Part shown: one piece after another, positions 4,607-37,483 of the stretch | How the letters are laid out: each line of letters starts with the position of its first letter | Numbering within the stretch: the first letter of the stretch is position 1 | IMG/VR virus record: IMGVR_UViG_3300019776_000736 | Coordinates: 1 to 41,527 of that record | Reading direction: 5' to 3' (one strand) | Source of the DNA: a virus | Length of the DNA: 41,527 nt | Made by a program: the position numbers and the translations under genes | The notes under the pieces: model-generated | The model's input: only the letters and a program-made list of their open reading frames with translations | The model's database searches: none | What the model was told of the DNA's origin: nothing

Positions 4607-6727
4607 ATGCCGCGACCAGTCAAAAAGCGCACCTCCCCGCAGCTCGCAACCCGGGCCGCGTTCGTGCCGGCGTCGGTGAACGAAGAACTTCGTACGGTCG
4701 ACATTATCTGGACGACTGGCGCCGAAGGCGAACGCTGCGAGTGGGATGGTGAAGTTTATCTGGAGTCGTTGCGTGTCGACGACGCCAGCGTTCGCATGGA
4801 ACGCCTCAACGCAGGGGCACCTGTCCTCAATGCGCACCAGCAATGGAACGGCCTGTCCGATCAAATCGGCGTCGTCGAACGGGCCTGGATCGAGAACGGC
4901 ATTGGCCATGCGACGGTTAAGTTCAGTTCCCGTGCCGAGGTCGAACCGTTTTGGCTCGACGTGAAAAACGGCGTGATCCGTAATATCTCCGTGGGCTATG
5001 TGGTTTACCGCTATGAAGTGATTGAGGCGTCGTCCGACGGCGAGCCCAAGCGCATGGTGGCGGTCGACTGGGAGCCAATGGAACTCAGCTTTGTTCCCGT
5101 GCCGTTTGACATGGGTGCACAAGTCCGCGGCGGCGCGTCGCCCCGCACGTTCACCGCAGAAGTTATTAACCGCTCGAAGGGGTCAAAAAGAATGAAACGT
5201 AAACTTTCCGTTATCCGCGCTGACCTGGCGAAAGCTCGGGCCGCGGTCACCAAAGCCCGTGAGATCGCGGACGAAGCCCAGGCCACCGAAGCCCAGGCCA
5301 AGCTCGAAGAAATTGAAGCCGAGCTGGAAGAGGCCCTCGACGAACTGGACGAAGGTCTGGGCGCGCCAGACCCGGCAACCACCGACGCGCCAGCAGTTCC
5401 AGCTACTGCGGCTACTGATGACGCGACCATCGAAGAGCGCGGCCGGGTTGCTGAGCGTACGCGCCAAGCCGGTATTCGTGCCCTGGCCACTCGCTTCACC
5501 GCAATCAAACCTGAAGACATCGAAGGCCTGATTGCACGCGGCGTTACGGTAGAACAGGCTGGCATGTCGATCATGTACACCCTGGCTGAACGTCAGGCGG
5601 CAATCAATCCACAAGCAGGCGGCAATCAAGTGGCCGATCATTCGAAGACCCGTTCCGCGATGCAAGCGGCGATTCTCAACCGCGCGGCACCGACCAAGCA
5701 CAAGGCCACCGACGAGACTCGTCAGTACCGCGGCTTCACGCTGTACGACATGGCGCGTCGCTGCATCGAAATGGCCGGCGGCCGTACCGACGGCTTGAGC
5801 CGTCGCGAAGTGGCATCCCTGGCTTTGAACATCGGCGATACCCGTGTACAGCGCGCGGCGGGCATGATGTCCACCAGTGATTTCCCGCTGATCCTGGGCA
5901 ACACCATCGACCGCGCGTTGCGCACTGCGTATGACGAGACCGCGCAAACCTGGCAGCCACTCGGCCAGCAACGCAACGTAAACGATTTCCGCGTGCGCAC
6001 CACCGTCGCCCTGGGTGACGCTGCTGCCCTGGAAAAAGTGCTGGAAGGTGGCGAGTACAAGTACGGTTCCCTGCCTGAAGAGGGCAGCACCCTGCAGGTC
6101 GCCAAGTACGGTAAGATCATCCCGTTCACCTGGGAAGCTTTGATCAACGATGACCTGGGCGCCTTCGACCGCGTACCGGCGGCACTGGCTCAGGCGGCCC
6201 GTCAGACCGAGAGCAACCTGGTATGGGGCATGATCCTCGGCAACCCGCTGTGGATCGATGGCTTTGCGATCATGTCGACCCAGCACGGCAACATTGCCGC
6301 GTCCGGTGGCGCGATCAACGTCACCACCCTGGCCGCTGCTCGCGCCGCAATGCGCAAACAGAAAGGCCTGAACGGTCAGAACTACATCAACATCACCCCG
6401 AAATTCCTCGTTGTGGGCCCGGACAAGGAACTCGAAGCGTACCAGTACACCAGCCCGAACTACGTGCCAGTCACTAATGGTACGATCAACCCAGTGCAGA
6501 ACACCACGCTTCAGGTGATCGTCGAACCCCGCATCGTCGGTAACGAGTGGTATCTGGTGGGCGACGGCGCTGATACCTTCGAGTACGCTTACCTCGATGG
6601 CGAGAATGGCATGTTCACTGAAACCCGCGAAGGTTTCGAAGTGGACGGTCTGGAAGTCAAGGCACGACTGGTATTCGGCACGGCGTTTGTCGACTACCGT
6701 TCGATGTACAAAAACCCAGGCGCGTAA
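4607..6727 (+). CDS. Prohead protease-scaffold-major capsid fusion
   Basis: A 706-residue protein combining functions that are usually separate. Residues 1-175 match the S78-type prohead serine protease: catalytic candidates His77 (VLNAHQQW) and Ser128 (RNISVGY), followed by WEPMELSFVPVPFD (155-168), the usual third motif. Residues 196-260 are a charged, Ala/Glu-rich coiled coil resembling an HK97 delta/scaffold domain. From about 340 to the end is an HK97-fold major capsid protein (for example GEYKYGSLPEEG and the IIPFTWEALINDD region). The fusion implies autocatalytic processing in the procapsid. An internal ATG at 5192 with a good ribosome-binding site may also give a separate scaffold-capsid product. 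Confidence 0.93.
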   Translation: MPRPVKKRTSPQLATRAAFVPASVNEELRTVDIIWTTGAEGERCEWDGEVYLESLRVDDASVRMERLNAGAPVLNAHQQWNGLSDQIGVVERAWIENGIGHATVKFSSRAEVEPFWLDVKNGVIRNISVGYVVYRYEVIEASSDGEPKRMVAVDWEPMELSFVPVPFDMGAQVRGGASPRTFTAEVINRSKGSKRMKRKLSVIRADLAKARAAVTKAREIADEAQATEAQAKLEEIEAELEEALDELDEGLGAPDPATTDAPAVPATAATDDATIEERGRVAERTRQAGIRALATRFTAIKPEDIEGLIARGVTVEQAGMSIMYTLAERQAAINPQAGGNQVADHSKTRSAMQAAILNRAAPTKHKATDETRQYRGFTLYDMARRCIEMAGGRTDGLSRREVASLALNIGDTRVQRAAGMMSTSDFPLILGNTIDRALRTAYDETAQTWQPLGQQRNVNDFRVRTTVALGDAAALEKVLEGGEYKYGSLPEEGSTLQVAKYGKIIPFTWEALINDDLGAFDRVPAALAQAARQTESNLVWGMILGNPLWIDGFAIMSTQHGNIAASGGAINVTTLAAARAAMRKQKGLNGQNYINITPKFLVVGPDKELEAYQYTSPNYVPVTNGTINPVQNTTLQVIVEPRIVGNEWYLVGDGADTFEYAYLDGENGMFTETREGFEVDGLEVKARLVFGTAFVDYRSMYKNPGA
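5177..5194 (+). promoter_or_regulatory. Internal ribosome-binding site and ATG in protease-capsid gene
   Basis: AAGGGG at 5177-5182 lies nine bases before an in-frame ATG at 5192 (Met196 of the fusion), exactly between the protease domain and the coiled-coil scaffold. Initiation here would give a 511-residue scaffold-capsid protein in excess of the protease fusion. This is inferred from position and spacing only. Confidence 0.5.
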
Positions 6728-6781
6728 CCCGGTTCGGACTGCCGCACGGATGCGGCCCTTTTCTCTTGTGGAGATTTCAGC

Positions 6782-7132
6782 ATGCGCAATTACATTCAAC
6801 CGGGCAGCATCATCGACCTTACTGCACCGGCGGGCGGGTTCACTTCGGGCGTGCCCGTTCGTCTCGGTTCCTTCTATGGCGTACCCCAGTGCACTGTTGC
6901 GGTCGGCATCAAAGGCGCGGTAAAACTCGACGGTGTCTTCGAGCTGCCGAAGGTCAGCGCCCAGGCGTGGACCGAAGGTCAGATCATCTATTCGCCTGCA
7001 GCCGGCGGCCTGGTCACCAACGTGAGCGCCACGGGCCTGTACCCGATCGGCGTAGCCACCGAAGCGGCCGCTAACCCGTCGGCGGTGGGCCGTGTGCGGC
7101 TCAATGGTACCGCCACCGTACCGGTGCCGTAA
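6782..7132 (+). CDS. Capsid decoration protein, DUF2190 family
   Basis: A 116-residue small beta-rich protein that matches the DUF2190 group: N-terminal NYIQPGSIIDLTAPAGG, central VAVGIKGAVKLDGVFELPK, and C-terminal GLYPIGVATEAA. Members are capsid cement or decoration proteins encoded just after the major capsid gene, as here. A GTGGAG Shine-Dalgarno precedes the ATG. Its TAA overlaps the ATG of the next gene. Confidence 0.85.
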   Translation: MRNYIQPGSIIDLTAPAGGFTSGVPVRLGSFYGVPQCTVAVGIKGAVKLDGVFELPKVSAQAWTEGQIIYSPAAGGLVTNVSATGLYPIGVATEAAANPSAVGRVRLNGTATVPVP

Positions 7133-7473
7133 TGGGTTGGAACGCACTGGCGGGCATGGTGCACCGCACGTCGGTGCGTACGTTTCGCCAAGACCTGGGC
7201 GCACTTTACGTGCGCCAGGGTTTCCCCGATCACCCAATTGCTGACGTCGTTTTTGACGACACCTATTTTTCCGTCAATCTCGAGACGGGCGTAGAGCAAT
7301 CCAGCAAGCGGCCGATCATGGGCGTCAACACTGCGGATCTTCCAACCCCGCGTGACGCGCAGAAAGATCGGATCATTCTGAACGGTATCACCTTTTCTAT
7401 TACTGACGTCCAGCCGGACGGCGAAGCGGGCACCACGTTGTTCCTCAGTCAGACCATCAACAGGACGCCGTGA
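7132..7473 (+). CDS. Head-tail joining protein, gpFII-like
   Basis: A 113-residue protein in the position of lambda FII between capsid and tail genes. The pattern (short N-terminal helix, then strands with VVFDDTYFSVNLETGVEQSSKRP, ILNGITFSITDVQPDGEAGTTLFL) is that of the phage head-tail attachment family. It would sit under the portal and receive the preassembled tail. The ATG overlaps the upstream stop (TAATG). Confidence 0.75.
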   Translation: MGWNALAGMVHRTSVRTFRQDLGALYVRQGFPDHPIADVVFDDTYFSVNLETGVEQSSKRPIMGVNTADLPTPRDAQKDRIILNGITFSITDVQPDGEAGTTLFLSQTINRTP

Positions 7474-33569: not shown

Positions 33570-33706
33570 CCGCCCTCTACGCCATCCTAACCTGGCTGGC
33601 AATCATCACCGTAGCCATCTACGGCATCAGCCTTTACGGCGCACACCTGGCCAAGCTTCGCGATCAGCGGGCGAAGGACGGGGTTAATTGGAGTATTGAG
33701 GCGTGA
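33566..33706 (+). CDS. Small membrane protein
   Basis: A 46-residue protein read directly: ATG at 33566, hydrophobic segment LYAILTWLAIIT and VAIYGISLYGA, followed by a charged tail. One membrane helix is likely. The stop overlaps the GTG start of the methyltransferase gene. Confidence 0.6.
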   Translation: MTALYAILTWLAIITVAIYGISLYGAHLAKLRDQRAKDGVNWSIEA

Positions 33707-34791
33707 CGGCCTACTACAACGAGTTCGACCCATACGCTGCCCAGTGGCTGCGAAACCTAATCGAAGCGGGCCACATCGCCCCAGGTGTTGTTGATGAACG
33801 ATCTATCGAAGATGTCTTGCCTGATGACCTGCGAGGCTTTACCCAATGCCATTTCTTCGCCGGAATCGGCGTTTGGTCACTGGCCTTGCGCCGCGCTGGG
33901 TGGCCTGACGATCGCCCGGTTTGGACAGGATCTTGCCCCTGTCAACCTTTCAGCGCGGCAGGCGCGGGAACTGGGTTTGCTGACGAGCGGCATTTGTGGC
34001 CCGCATTTTTCCACCTCATCACCCAGTGCACACCTTCAATTATCTTTGGAGAACAGGTTGCGGGCAAGGCTGTTGAACCTTGGGTCGACCTTGTACACGC
34101 TGACCTGGAAGCCATGGGTTACGCCTTCGGGGCCGTCCCGTTTCCGTCTGCGGGCGTCGGTGCGCCGCATATCCGAGACCGCCTGTTCTGGGTGGCCGAC
34201 AGTGACCGCAGCGGACGCGAACCGGGGCGCGAAGGACGCAAGGCCGTGGGATACGGGGCGACCACTCAACCAAATCGTGGCGCTGGCTGGTTGGCCAACG
34301 CCAATGGCCGGAACGCCGGCGCAGAACGGGAACAACGCGGCGGGCAACAACGACAGCAGCCGCAAGACAGTGGAGGTCGTGAACTGGTCGGGCTGGGCAA
34401 CACCGAAGGCGTGCGACGGAAAGGGGAATGCCTACGAACCAGAGCCGGACTGCCGCAGGGTGGAGTTGCGCAAGCAGGTGTCATTGACGGGCTGGCCGAG
34501 TCCGATAGCGAACGACTCCACGGGTTCGACCCATTGCTACAGTGGGAAAAATCCCGACGGATCGCCGGGACTAGCTTGGAAACTTCCGGGCGCGGTCCGG
34601 TTAATGGCTTCTGGGGAGGTGCTGACTGGATCGGCTGCAGGGATGATCGGTTCCGGCCAGTTGAACCCGGCACATCCCCGCTGGCTAATGGGGCTTCCTC
34701 CCGAGTGGGACGACTGCGCGCCTACGGAAACGCTATCAACGCTGAAGCGGCGCACGTCTTTATCGAAGCTGTGATGGAGTGCCGTGCATGA
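33703..34791 (+). CDS. DNA cytosine-5 methyltransferase
   Basis: A 362-residue C5-methyltransferase. Motif I is [17 protein letters not shown] (51-67), motif [10 protein letters not shown] with catalytic Cys80, motif VI GEQV (116-119, for ENV), motif [12 protein letters not shown] (156-163), and motif X YGNAIN with AAHVFIEA near the end. Residues 165-330, where the target recognition domain lies, are unusually low in complexity (Gly, Arg, Gln, Glu) with a spaced repeat (VADSDR, LANANG, LGNTEG, LAESDS). The same DNA is open in another frame (see 33794-34774). Modification of phage DNA against host restriction is the likely role. It starts at GTG 33703. Confidence 0.92.
33794..34774 (+). CDS. 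GWPTP-repeat phage protein encoded out of frame inside the methyltransferase gene
   Basis: The +1 frame is open for about 327 codons, stopping 17 bases before the methyltransferase stop. It reads as a real protein I recall from phages carrying cytosine methyltransferases: [59 protein letters not shown], then GWPT, GWPTP, GWATP and GWPSP repeats at 34190, 34289, 34391 and 34490, and [20 protein letters not shown] near the end. The start is uncertain (GTG 33785, ATG 33794, 33812 or 33824). Function unknown. Family recognition is from memory, not from a search. Confidence 0.75.
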
Positions 34792-35613: not shown

Positions 35614-36081
35614 ATGACCAATAACCCAACGATTGACGGCGTGTCGCCGCCGGTAAATTGCCGCCAGCGCATGGCCGCAGAAGGAAAGCCATATCCACGC
35701 TCATCTTGCGAGGCTTGCGGGCAGTTTTCGCCAAAGTGGAAAGAGTGCGATGCAGCGCTGGGCGCGCATGTCGTCGAGCGCCAGCCGGTCGCTGTGGTGG
35801 AAAAATACGACGATGTTCTGCTGCCCTTCCTGTCGCTGATGCGCGCTGAGCTTCACGCCAATGCTCACAAGGGCGACAGGCCCGGCTGGCTCCAGATGGA
35901 CCGCAAGACCGCAGTGCTGGAAGTGTTCTACCACCTGGGCAAGCTACATCAGGCCGTGCATCGTGACGAAGCGGCAGCGATCAAGGAGTACGCCGCCGAC
36001 GTGGCCAACATGTGCATGATGCTGCTCGATATCTGCGCCTGCCTCGACGCCACCGCTGCGTTGAATGAGGTGCGGAAATGA
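35614..36081 (+). CDS. MazG-like helical protein with N-terminal Cys motif
   Basis: A 155-residue protein. The N-terminus has CRQRM and CEACGQF, possibly metal-binding. The C-terminal part (LQMDRKTAVLEVFYHLGKLH and IKEYAADVANMCMMLLDICA) resembles the all-alpha MazG/dUTPase-like phosphohydrolase helices with E-x-x-x-x-x-K and E-x-x-x-D elements; this is a suggestion only. AGGAG seven bases before the ATG at 35614 is better than the TTG at 35608. Confidence 0.65.
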   Translation: MTNNPTIDGVSPPVNCRQRMAAEGKPYPRSSCEACGQFSPKWKECDAALGAHVVERQPVAVVEKYDDVLLPFLSLMRAELHANAHKGDRPGWLQMDRKTAVLEVFYHLGKLHQAVHRDEAAAIKEYAADVANMCMMLLDICACLDATAALNEVRK

Positions 36082-37223
36082 CCGACGTAGCCAGCCTGGG
36101 CATAACGATCAGCAACCCTAATAACTCCCCGGCGTTGCAAGCGGGACTGGACGCCGGGGTTCGATACTTCGAGTTCAATGAGATCGGAACCTACACATTC
36201 CTCGATACGGTTACGATCCCTCAGGGCGTACGGATCCTGCTCAAAGGGATCGGCTATGGCATGATCTGGCTTAAGCTGGTCGCCGCTACCGGCCGCTCAC
36301 TGTTCAACTACTTCCGGCCCGCCGGTGCGCCAATGGCCATGGTGACATTCAAGAACTTCGTGTTCCACTGGGGTGGGGCGCTTGCCCAAGCCGGCTCGAA
36401 CGCTGTGAGTTTCATCGGAGCGAACGAGGCAAACTCCGATTCGTTGCTGAACATCAAGGACTGCATGTTCTACAACTTCGATGCCGACGTAAAAGTCGCC
36501 TTTGCGTCGCTGAATAAGTTCACCCGCAATTGGCATGCGTTCGGCAACTTCGCTTATATCCTCGGCCGTGGCGCGTCGTTCACCGATTTCACTCAAGTCA
36601 TGTCGTTCAACAAGACGGCGATCTATGCCCGGGACGACATCGACGATGCGTTCTCCAATGGCCTGACGCTCGATCGTTGCAACTTCATCACAGCACAGGG
36701 CATGAACGTCTTCGTCCAGGGGTGGCAAGCGGTATTTGCCGATATGTGCGGGTTTGATTTGGGTTCTGCTGGACTGGCGGCCTTGCACTTCCGGCGCTGT
36801 CAGGACGTGCACCTGTCGAAAAGCTTCATCAGCGGCAACGGTCGGGCCGTTCGTGACGGCGTGCTGTTCGACGAGACGCACTCGTTCTCCCTCGCAGGGG
36901 GCGCGGTGGTCAACAGCTACGTGGGTGTGCGCGTGATAGCCCCGGTCAACGGCATGATCCCGAACGGAACGATCCGCGATGTCAAGTTCGATGGCAACCT
37001 GAAAAACGATGTGCTGCTGATGGACAACTGCAAAGGTGTCAATGTCCTCGACAACTACCACCGCAAACAAATGGCACGTACCGGGACGGACTTCGAGATT
37101 TATGCCAACTTGCCTGGCGTGAACAAGTGCCAGATACGCGGCAACAATTTGGCCGGGGTATCCTACGATATCGTCGCCGGCCCGAACAGCATCGTTCGAG
37201 ATAACCTTTTCGGGGTAGCGTGA
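36078..37223 (+). CDS. Beta-helix protein, tailspike-like but outside the tail module
   Basis: A 381-residue protein with a parallel beta-helix pattern of the pectate lyase superfamily: GVRYFEFNEIGTYTFLDTV and IPQGVRILLKGIG at the start, then repeated short strands with Asn/Asp turns (FKNFVFHWGG, LDRCNFITAQGMNVF, IRDVKFDGNLKNDV, CQIRGNNLAGVS). No signal peptide and no attachment domain like those of fibres is visible. It lies among early small genes, far from the baseplate, coupled by ATGA to the upstream gene. It may be a capsule depolymerase or virion adhesin acquired as a cassette. Catalytic residues cannot be assigned. Confidence 0.7.
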   Translation: MTDVASLGITISNPNNSPALQAGLDAGVRYFEFNEIGTYTFLDTVTIPQGVRILLKGIGYGMIWLKLVAATGRSLFNYFRPAGAPMAMVTFKNFVFHWGGALAQAGSNAVSFIGANEANSDSLLNIKDCMFYNFDADVKVAFASLNKFTRNWHAFGNFAYILGRGASFTDFTQVMSFNKTAIYARDDIDDAFSNGLTLDRCNFITAQGMNVFVQGWQAVFADMCGFDLGSAGLAALHFRRCQDVHLSKSFISGNGRAVRDGVLFDETHSFSLAGGAVVNSYVGVRVIAPVNGMIPNGTIRDVKFDGNLKNDVLLMDNCKGVNVLDNYHRKQMARTGTDFEIYANLPGVNKCQIRGNNLAGVSYDIVAGPNSIVRDNLFGVA

Positions 37224-37483
37224 TGGCCAAGACAGACAAACAGCGCAAGGCCGATTCGCGCAAAGCCAACGCTGACAAGGGGCGCAAGGAGTTCCCCATG
37301 CCACCGGCGATTGCAAATGCACTTCAGCGCATTTGTGACCGGTCACAGTGTGAGGACTGGCGCGAAGCGTTGTCGCTCGCGGTGCTCAACCTGGACGCCA
37401 TGGACGACGAGTTGTTCGCGCGGTGCATGGCGATCCCGCGGCATGATCTGACAGAGTTAATCGCGAAGTACATGCCTGAGTAA
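37223..37483 (+). CDS. Small basic protein, possibly DNA-binding
   Basis: An 86-residue protein with a very basic N-terminus (KTDKQRKADSRKANADKGRK), then EFPMPPAIANALQRICDRSQ and EDWREALSLAVLNLDAMDDE. The F-P-M-P/helix arrangement is reminiscent of small ribbon-helix-helix or similar regulators, but I cannot place it. ATG 37223 overlaps the upstream TGA; a GTG one codon earlier is an alternative. A terminator follows. Confidence 0.65.
   Translation: MAKTDKQRKADSRKANADKGRKEFPMPPAIANALQRICDRSQCEDWREALSLAVLNLDAMDDELFARCMAIPRHDLTELIAKYMPE

Follow-up and report, generated by a model that had tools for sequence, protein, structure and literature searches.

Does the 1 kb of DNA at 33703–34791 encode one protein or two and, if two, what might the second one do? 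The window (the whole stretch of DNA analysed) is a 41.5 kb IMG/VR virus record, and an earlier note had proposed that this part of it carries two proteins in two frames of the same strand, a cytosine methyltransferase and, in a +1 frame open for more than 320 codons, a GWPTP-repeat protein. Both frames are open and, as detailed below, both are selected, which bears out the basic proposal. The two products are referred to here as alpha and beta.

33703–34791, plus strand: alpha, C5 cytosine methyltransferase catalytic subunit (frame 0, GTG start, 362 aa)
33794–34774, plus strand: beta (+1 frame; assigned from the open frame, conservation, synonymous constraint and omega)

ORF analysis of the locus places the open +1 frame at 33761–34774 (337 codons), with GTG33785, ATG33794, ATG33812 and ATG33824 as possible starts for beta; the +2 frame of 33703–34791 contains 19 stops. 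Synonymous shuffling of the alpha codons, with amino acids and codon usage kept, gave a mean of 3.0 stops in the +1 frame at this locus, and 1% of the shuffles were stop-free. For 62 distinct relatives, a set in which the loci were mostly picked through +1 similarity, shuffling predicts 2.9 +1 stops per locus and none was observed. Elsewhere in the window, 4607–6727 encodes a match (E 6.6e-215) to phrog_4523, in which a head maturation protease and a major head protein are fused, and is overlain by an antisense frame of 684 codons (5183–7237, minus strand); an antisense ORF of 349 codons (36297–37346, minus strand) lies over a 381-aa ORF (36078–37223, plus strand) for which no PHROG match was found.

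Homologues of the +1 protein, on whose existence in phages the earlier note had made its proposal depend, were detected by tblastn in 199 phage records. The phage records listed mostly bear one annotation, DNA methyltransferase, and both frames are annotated in K1ind2 and PhiXhv-28. Eighty IMG/VR loci were chosen on the alpha protein alone to avoid selecting on the +1 frame: the +1 core was stop-free in 80/80, and the +2 frame held 5–22 stops. All 80 loci found in bacterial genomes by the +1 profile overlap alpha at +1. Stops in close relatives had also been named as telling against a second protein; across the phage-record, genome and IMG/VR sets examined the frame stays open, with single stops in some loci. 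The overlap is also present in N15, a Vequintavirus and a Seunavirus, and the nested +1 arrangement recurs at 44% G+C in Paenibacillus phage Bloom; in a set chosen with the Bloom alpha, motif IX (see below) lies in an overlapping +1 ORF in 59/80 loci, at 38–61% G+C. The dcm gene of a methanogen (Methanomethylovorans) plasmid contains the same +1 LIPTP and LNPVWTEWLMGLPTNW segment (L526 1327–2118). ORFs with the beta motifs lie in the +1 frame of an alpha gene in 72/75 cases, and no stand-alone beta gene was found among these 75, the search pattern being coupled to the alpha C-terminus and hence biased. The arrangement spans hundreds of phages and one archaeal plasmid, and annotation usually shows one protein. 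A related gene occurs in 68 complete E. coli genomes; the ten E. coli rows listed have a single methyltransferase annotated, several of them next to a VRR-NUC gene.

Selection on the two frames was compared by a codon test, which counts the excess of identical codons over the codon-usage expectation where alphas share an amino acid, and by an overlapping-frame substitution count, from which omega was taken as N/S ratios against the doubly synonymous class; ratios were used instead of p-values because the counted pairs are not independent of one another. The synonymous-codon excess is 0.18 before beta and 0.05–0.07 at its start, 0.30 and then 0.61 over the catalytic part, 0.37 in the modules and 0.77 at the beta C-terminus; beyond beta it is 0.17, and in the tail 0.00. 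In the module region omega is 0.5–0.9 for frame 0 and 0.18–0.26 for +1; the corresponding values are 0.11–0.25 and 0.31–0.57 in the N-terminal (catalytic) part, and both frames lie at about 0.27–0.35 in the C-terminal part. In the control region upstream of beta, omega for the +1 frame is 1.6–3.8, as expected if no protein is read there. Stops in frame 0 of the modules were seen in 1/450, against about 250 expected from shuffling the synonymous codons of beta; alpha must therefore be read through the modules, even though its sequence there hardly matters. An HMM control on the +2 frame also scored above shuffles, a result that is not decisive alone, since the scores of other frames also rise when third bases are frozen. 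The two overlapping same-strand frames are both real and both under purifying selection. The earlier note had suggested per-frame omega and synonymous-site constraint as measures, and together they place both frames under selection, +1 the more strongly in the modules. Its view that the other frame is under stronger selection in the recognition region holds; its description of the methyltransferase as degraded there is slightly off, because frame 0 is still kept stop-free.

Alpha matches PF00145 (E 2.8e-11) and phrog_363 (E 1.2e-91), and aligns to M.HhaI (70–165) through motif VIII. Its C5 methyltransferase motif set I, IV (PCQ), VI, VIII and X is complete:

near 33853, plus strand: alpha motif I
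33937–33954, plus strand: alpha PCQPFS (motif IV, PCQ)
34048–34059, plus strand: alpha GEQV (motif VI, aligned to ENV)
34177–34197, plus strand: alpha motif VIII, DRLFWVA
about 34723–34737, plus strand: alpha motif X, YGNAI

Among the alpha-selected loci no motif IX was found in frame 0, and a strict pattern locates it in the +1 frame of 69/80. Alpha also has no selected recognition domain, as the omega of its module region indicates. Beta is organized as follows:

33794–34189, plus strand: beta N-terminal domain (conserved in A1/A2; includes LENRLRARL and LRASVRR)
34190–34288, plus strand: beta module 1 (GWPTV...; module census)
34289–34390, plus strand: beta module 2 (module census)
34391–34489, plus strand: beta module 3 (module census)
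34490–34594, plus strand: beta module 4 (module census)
34658–34717, plus strand: beta motif IX (hhalign to single-chain enzymes and canonical motif IX alignment)

The coherent motifs that the earlier note quoted for the +1 frame are all present, including the four GW-P/A-T/S-P repeats, which begin at 34190, 34289, 34391 and 34490. Betas are mostly 250–370 aa long and carry 1–5 modules that open with (G)W[PAQN]TPxAxD. A census counted 480 modules in 151 distinct arrays, with recurring types at many positions; the module 2 type recurs in 32 loci, at array positions 1–3 counted from 0. From their position and from the single-chain relatives described below, the tandem modules appear to be recognition units, each of which may read a different site. 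Motif IX shares its DNA with the alpha segment immediately before motif X, and synonymous constraint over it is mostly 0.6–1.0. The N-terminal domain (about 130 aa) matches nothing known and is missing from single-chain enzymes such as Rita gp76; it is probably a docking domain onto alpha. Beta gave zero matches to Pfam and NCBIfam, nothing relevant in a PDB sequence search, and no HNH match in PHROGs, Pfam or NCBIfam. AF2 modeling of beta alone gave a pLDDT of 52, with a helix and a beta hairpin at residues 80–126. In one viral contig (L060 2435–5743) the beta ORF continues in frame, with no stop, into a DNA polymerase I-like protein.

The single-chain relatives suggest what beta contributes. 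Actinophage enzymes of this type contain LPTPxAxD modules and EWMMGxPxGW (equivalent to motif IX) in the catalytic frame. The single frame of Mycobacterium phage Rita gp76 matches both phrog_363 (4e-79) and phrog_1008 (2e-61), the families to which alpha and beta, respectively, are assigned by PHROG matches at the present locus, and its order is motifs I–VIII, three LPTPxAxD modules, EWMMGWPAGW (FSEWMMGWPAGW) and motif X (GNGVVPQQ). Comparison of beta with the single-chain family in hhalign gave an E value of 2.4e-7, at motif IX, and the alignment of PRLTTRMTARIQGFPDDW with PRLAPAFSEWMMGWPAGW through canonical NgoMIV-type enzymes identifies this segment as motif IX; similarity at the level of the modules is modest (best about 4e-7, versus 1e-4 for reversed controls), with one wrongly divided module left out of account. 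The AF2 model of a single-chain relative matches M.HhaI and M.HaeIII, with a pLDDT of about 78–93 for most of the catalytic core and the IX–X segment and below 50 for the modules. As the modules of the single-chain enzyme lack structure to the same extent as those of beta, the disorder is, as modeled, a property of the family and not of the overlap. In Gordonia phage Upyo the halves are two adjacent genes. In Mycobacterium phage Jarcob the counterpart of Rita gp76 is split by a frame change into two overlapping ORFs, gp69/gp70 (L446 1621–2791, L442 1609–2778); this broken gene may represent a first step towards the split form.

By sequence comparison, the modules and motif IX of beta have counterparts within the one reading frame of single-chain phage methyltransferases; alpha lacks exactly the parts that beta carries. 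Beta is best read as the recognition and motif IX subunit because the actinophage enzymes hold the same parts in one frame, and very probably it is the missing DNA-recognition subunit of alpha. The GWPTP-repeat protein of the earlier note is thus present; rather than being unrelated to the methyltransferase, it is probably the half of that enzyme that carries target recognition and motif IX. Taken as a whole, the locus is in all likelihood a two-polypeptide cytosine-5 DNA methyltransferase, encoded on one stretch of DNA, that would protect the phage DNA. Frame 0 would give alpha, which would provide AdoMet binding and catalysis through motifs I–VIII and X, and an internal Shine–Dalgarno sequence and start codon would give beta from the +1 frame, comprising the N-terminal domain that probably docks on alpha, four recognition modules, and the motif IX that would anchor the recognition domain to the catalytic core. 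Alpha and beta are predicted to bind each other to form the complete enzyme, which would methylate the DNA of the phage itself at sites read by the modules, probably protecting it from host restriction.

Separate initiation of beta is visible in the relatives, most of which have AAGGAG before a conserved ATG equivalent to 33812. Their codons for the alpha segment DERSIEDV mostly spell AAGGAG or a variant of it, followed after 8–9 bases by the +1 ATG; the strongest form is GAA AGG AGY ATY GAR GAT GTN. The AGG Arg codon of this embedded signal is used in 23/57 cases, versus 8.8% of all Arg codons (p 1e-10), the start ATG is created by GAT in 46/55, versus 38% (p 3e-12), and the Shine–Dalgarno energy is better than background (p 1e-13). 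The present locus has lost the common sequence and has a weaker one at ATG33794 instead:

33783–33787, plus strand: AGGTG, probable Shine–Dalgarno sequence of beta, 6 nt before ATG33794

These starts bear on a different account of the two frames, in which programmed +1 ribosomal frameshifting after motif VIII fuses the +1 frame to alpha, to give motifs I–VIII, modules and motif IX in one chain. Such a fusion would restore the single-chain domain order up to motif IX, but it would be without motif X, which frame 0 keeps; moreover, the +1 frame is selected and stop-free far upstream of motif VIII (the N-terminal omega above), and the embedded Shine–Dalgarno sequence and ATG are conserved near alpha codon 37. 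We consider frameshifting improbable. We give equally little weight to the idea that beta is real but has another job (for example in anti-restriction, in inhibiting nucleases or in regulation), and that its likeness to pieces of a methyltransferase is no more than a resemblance: this would suit its empty Pfam and NCBIfam searches and unmatched N-terminal domain, but not the presence of modules and motif IX in frame in single-chain enzymes, the absence of precisely those parts from alpha, or the near-universal overlap with an alpha gene (72/75). That beta is a mere shadow, in which G+C-rich LADA-type repeat codons of the methyltransferase happen to read GWPTP, has a negligible chance of being correct and was rejected, in agreement with the earlier note, for although CTG-GCC-GAC-GCC does read GWPTP one base off, and frozen third bases would raise the +2 control as seen, the module region is near neutral in frame 0 and strongly constrained in +1, synonymous codons are frozen, the arrangement persists at 38–61% G+C and in the archaeal plasmid, and the modules are read in frame in other enzymes.

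The two-polypeptide methyltransferase is best compared, as its closest apparent precedent, with M.EcoHK31I, in which the gene for the small polypeptide lies inside that for the large one in a different frame. M.EcoHK31I (YGGCCR) needs both polypeptides, the large one containing motifs I–VIII and X and the small one motif IX (PMC3404938), the same division as here; prediction assigns the recognition domain of M.EcoHK31I to the large subunit (PMC3404938), whereas here selection points to a recognition domain in beta, which carries 1–5 modules. The modules themselves recall the multispecific C5 enzymes of Bacillus phages (SPR, phi3T, rho11s and H2), which have tandem target-recognition units (PMC8936443), likewise between motifs VIII and IX; those enzymes are single chains, whereas here an overlapping frame encodes the array on a polypeptide of its own. 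Rita gp76 and its relatives share the kind of modules, motif IX and catalytic family, but hold all parts in one frame and lack the beta N-terminal domain. In M.AquI and Upyo gp54/gp53 a catalytic half and a recognition half are also on two polypeptides, but the second polypeptide has motif X too and the genes are not nested, whereas motif X stays in alpha here. The ShiLan element (PMC11855218) likewise conceals a protein in another frame of a phage methylase gene, in that case an HNH endonuclease, but is a homing insertion, whereas the present second frame covers the native gene and would encode part of the methyltransferase. No restriction gene was recognised beside alpha and beta within the 41.5 kb record. 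The open papers searched contained no description of the phage-wide overlapping class, the beta module arrays or the neutral alpha linker.

To our knowledge, well-supported cases of dual coding on one strand over such a length (about 330 codons) are rare in bacteria and phages. The present case comes with a testable function and occurs in phages whose hosts are Proteobacteria and Firmicutes and in one archaeal plasmid. There is perhaps an even chance that, in a very large group of phage methyltransferases, specificity is stored as exchangeable second-frame cassettes, one DNA site each, that are shuffled between phages. If so, each cassette would be a recognition module in +1 and a neutral linker in frame 0 and, being readable in both frames, would allow the gene to be re-targeted without breaking the catalytic subunit. 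Because annotation usually keeps one frame (PHROGs labels both families simply 'DNA methyltransferase'), databases and methylation predictions lack either the catalytic or the specificity half of many phage methyltransferases. Through the module repertoire, the sites that phages protect against restriction could be approached directly.
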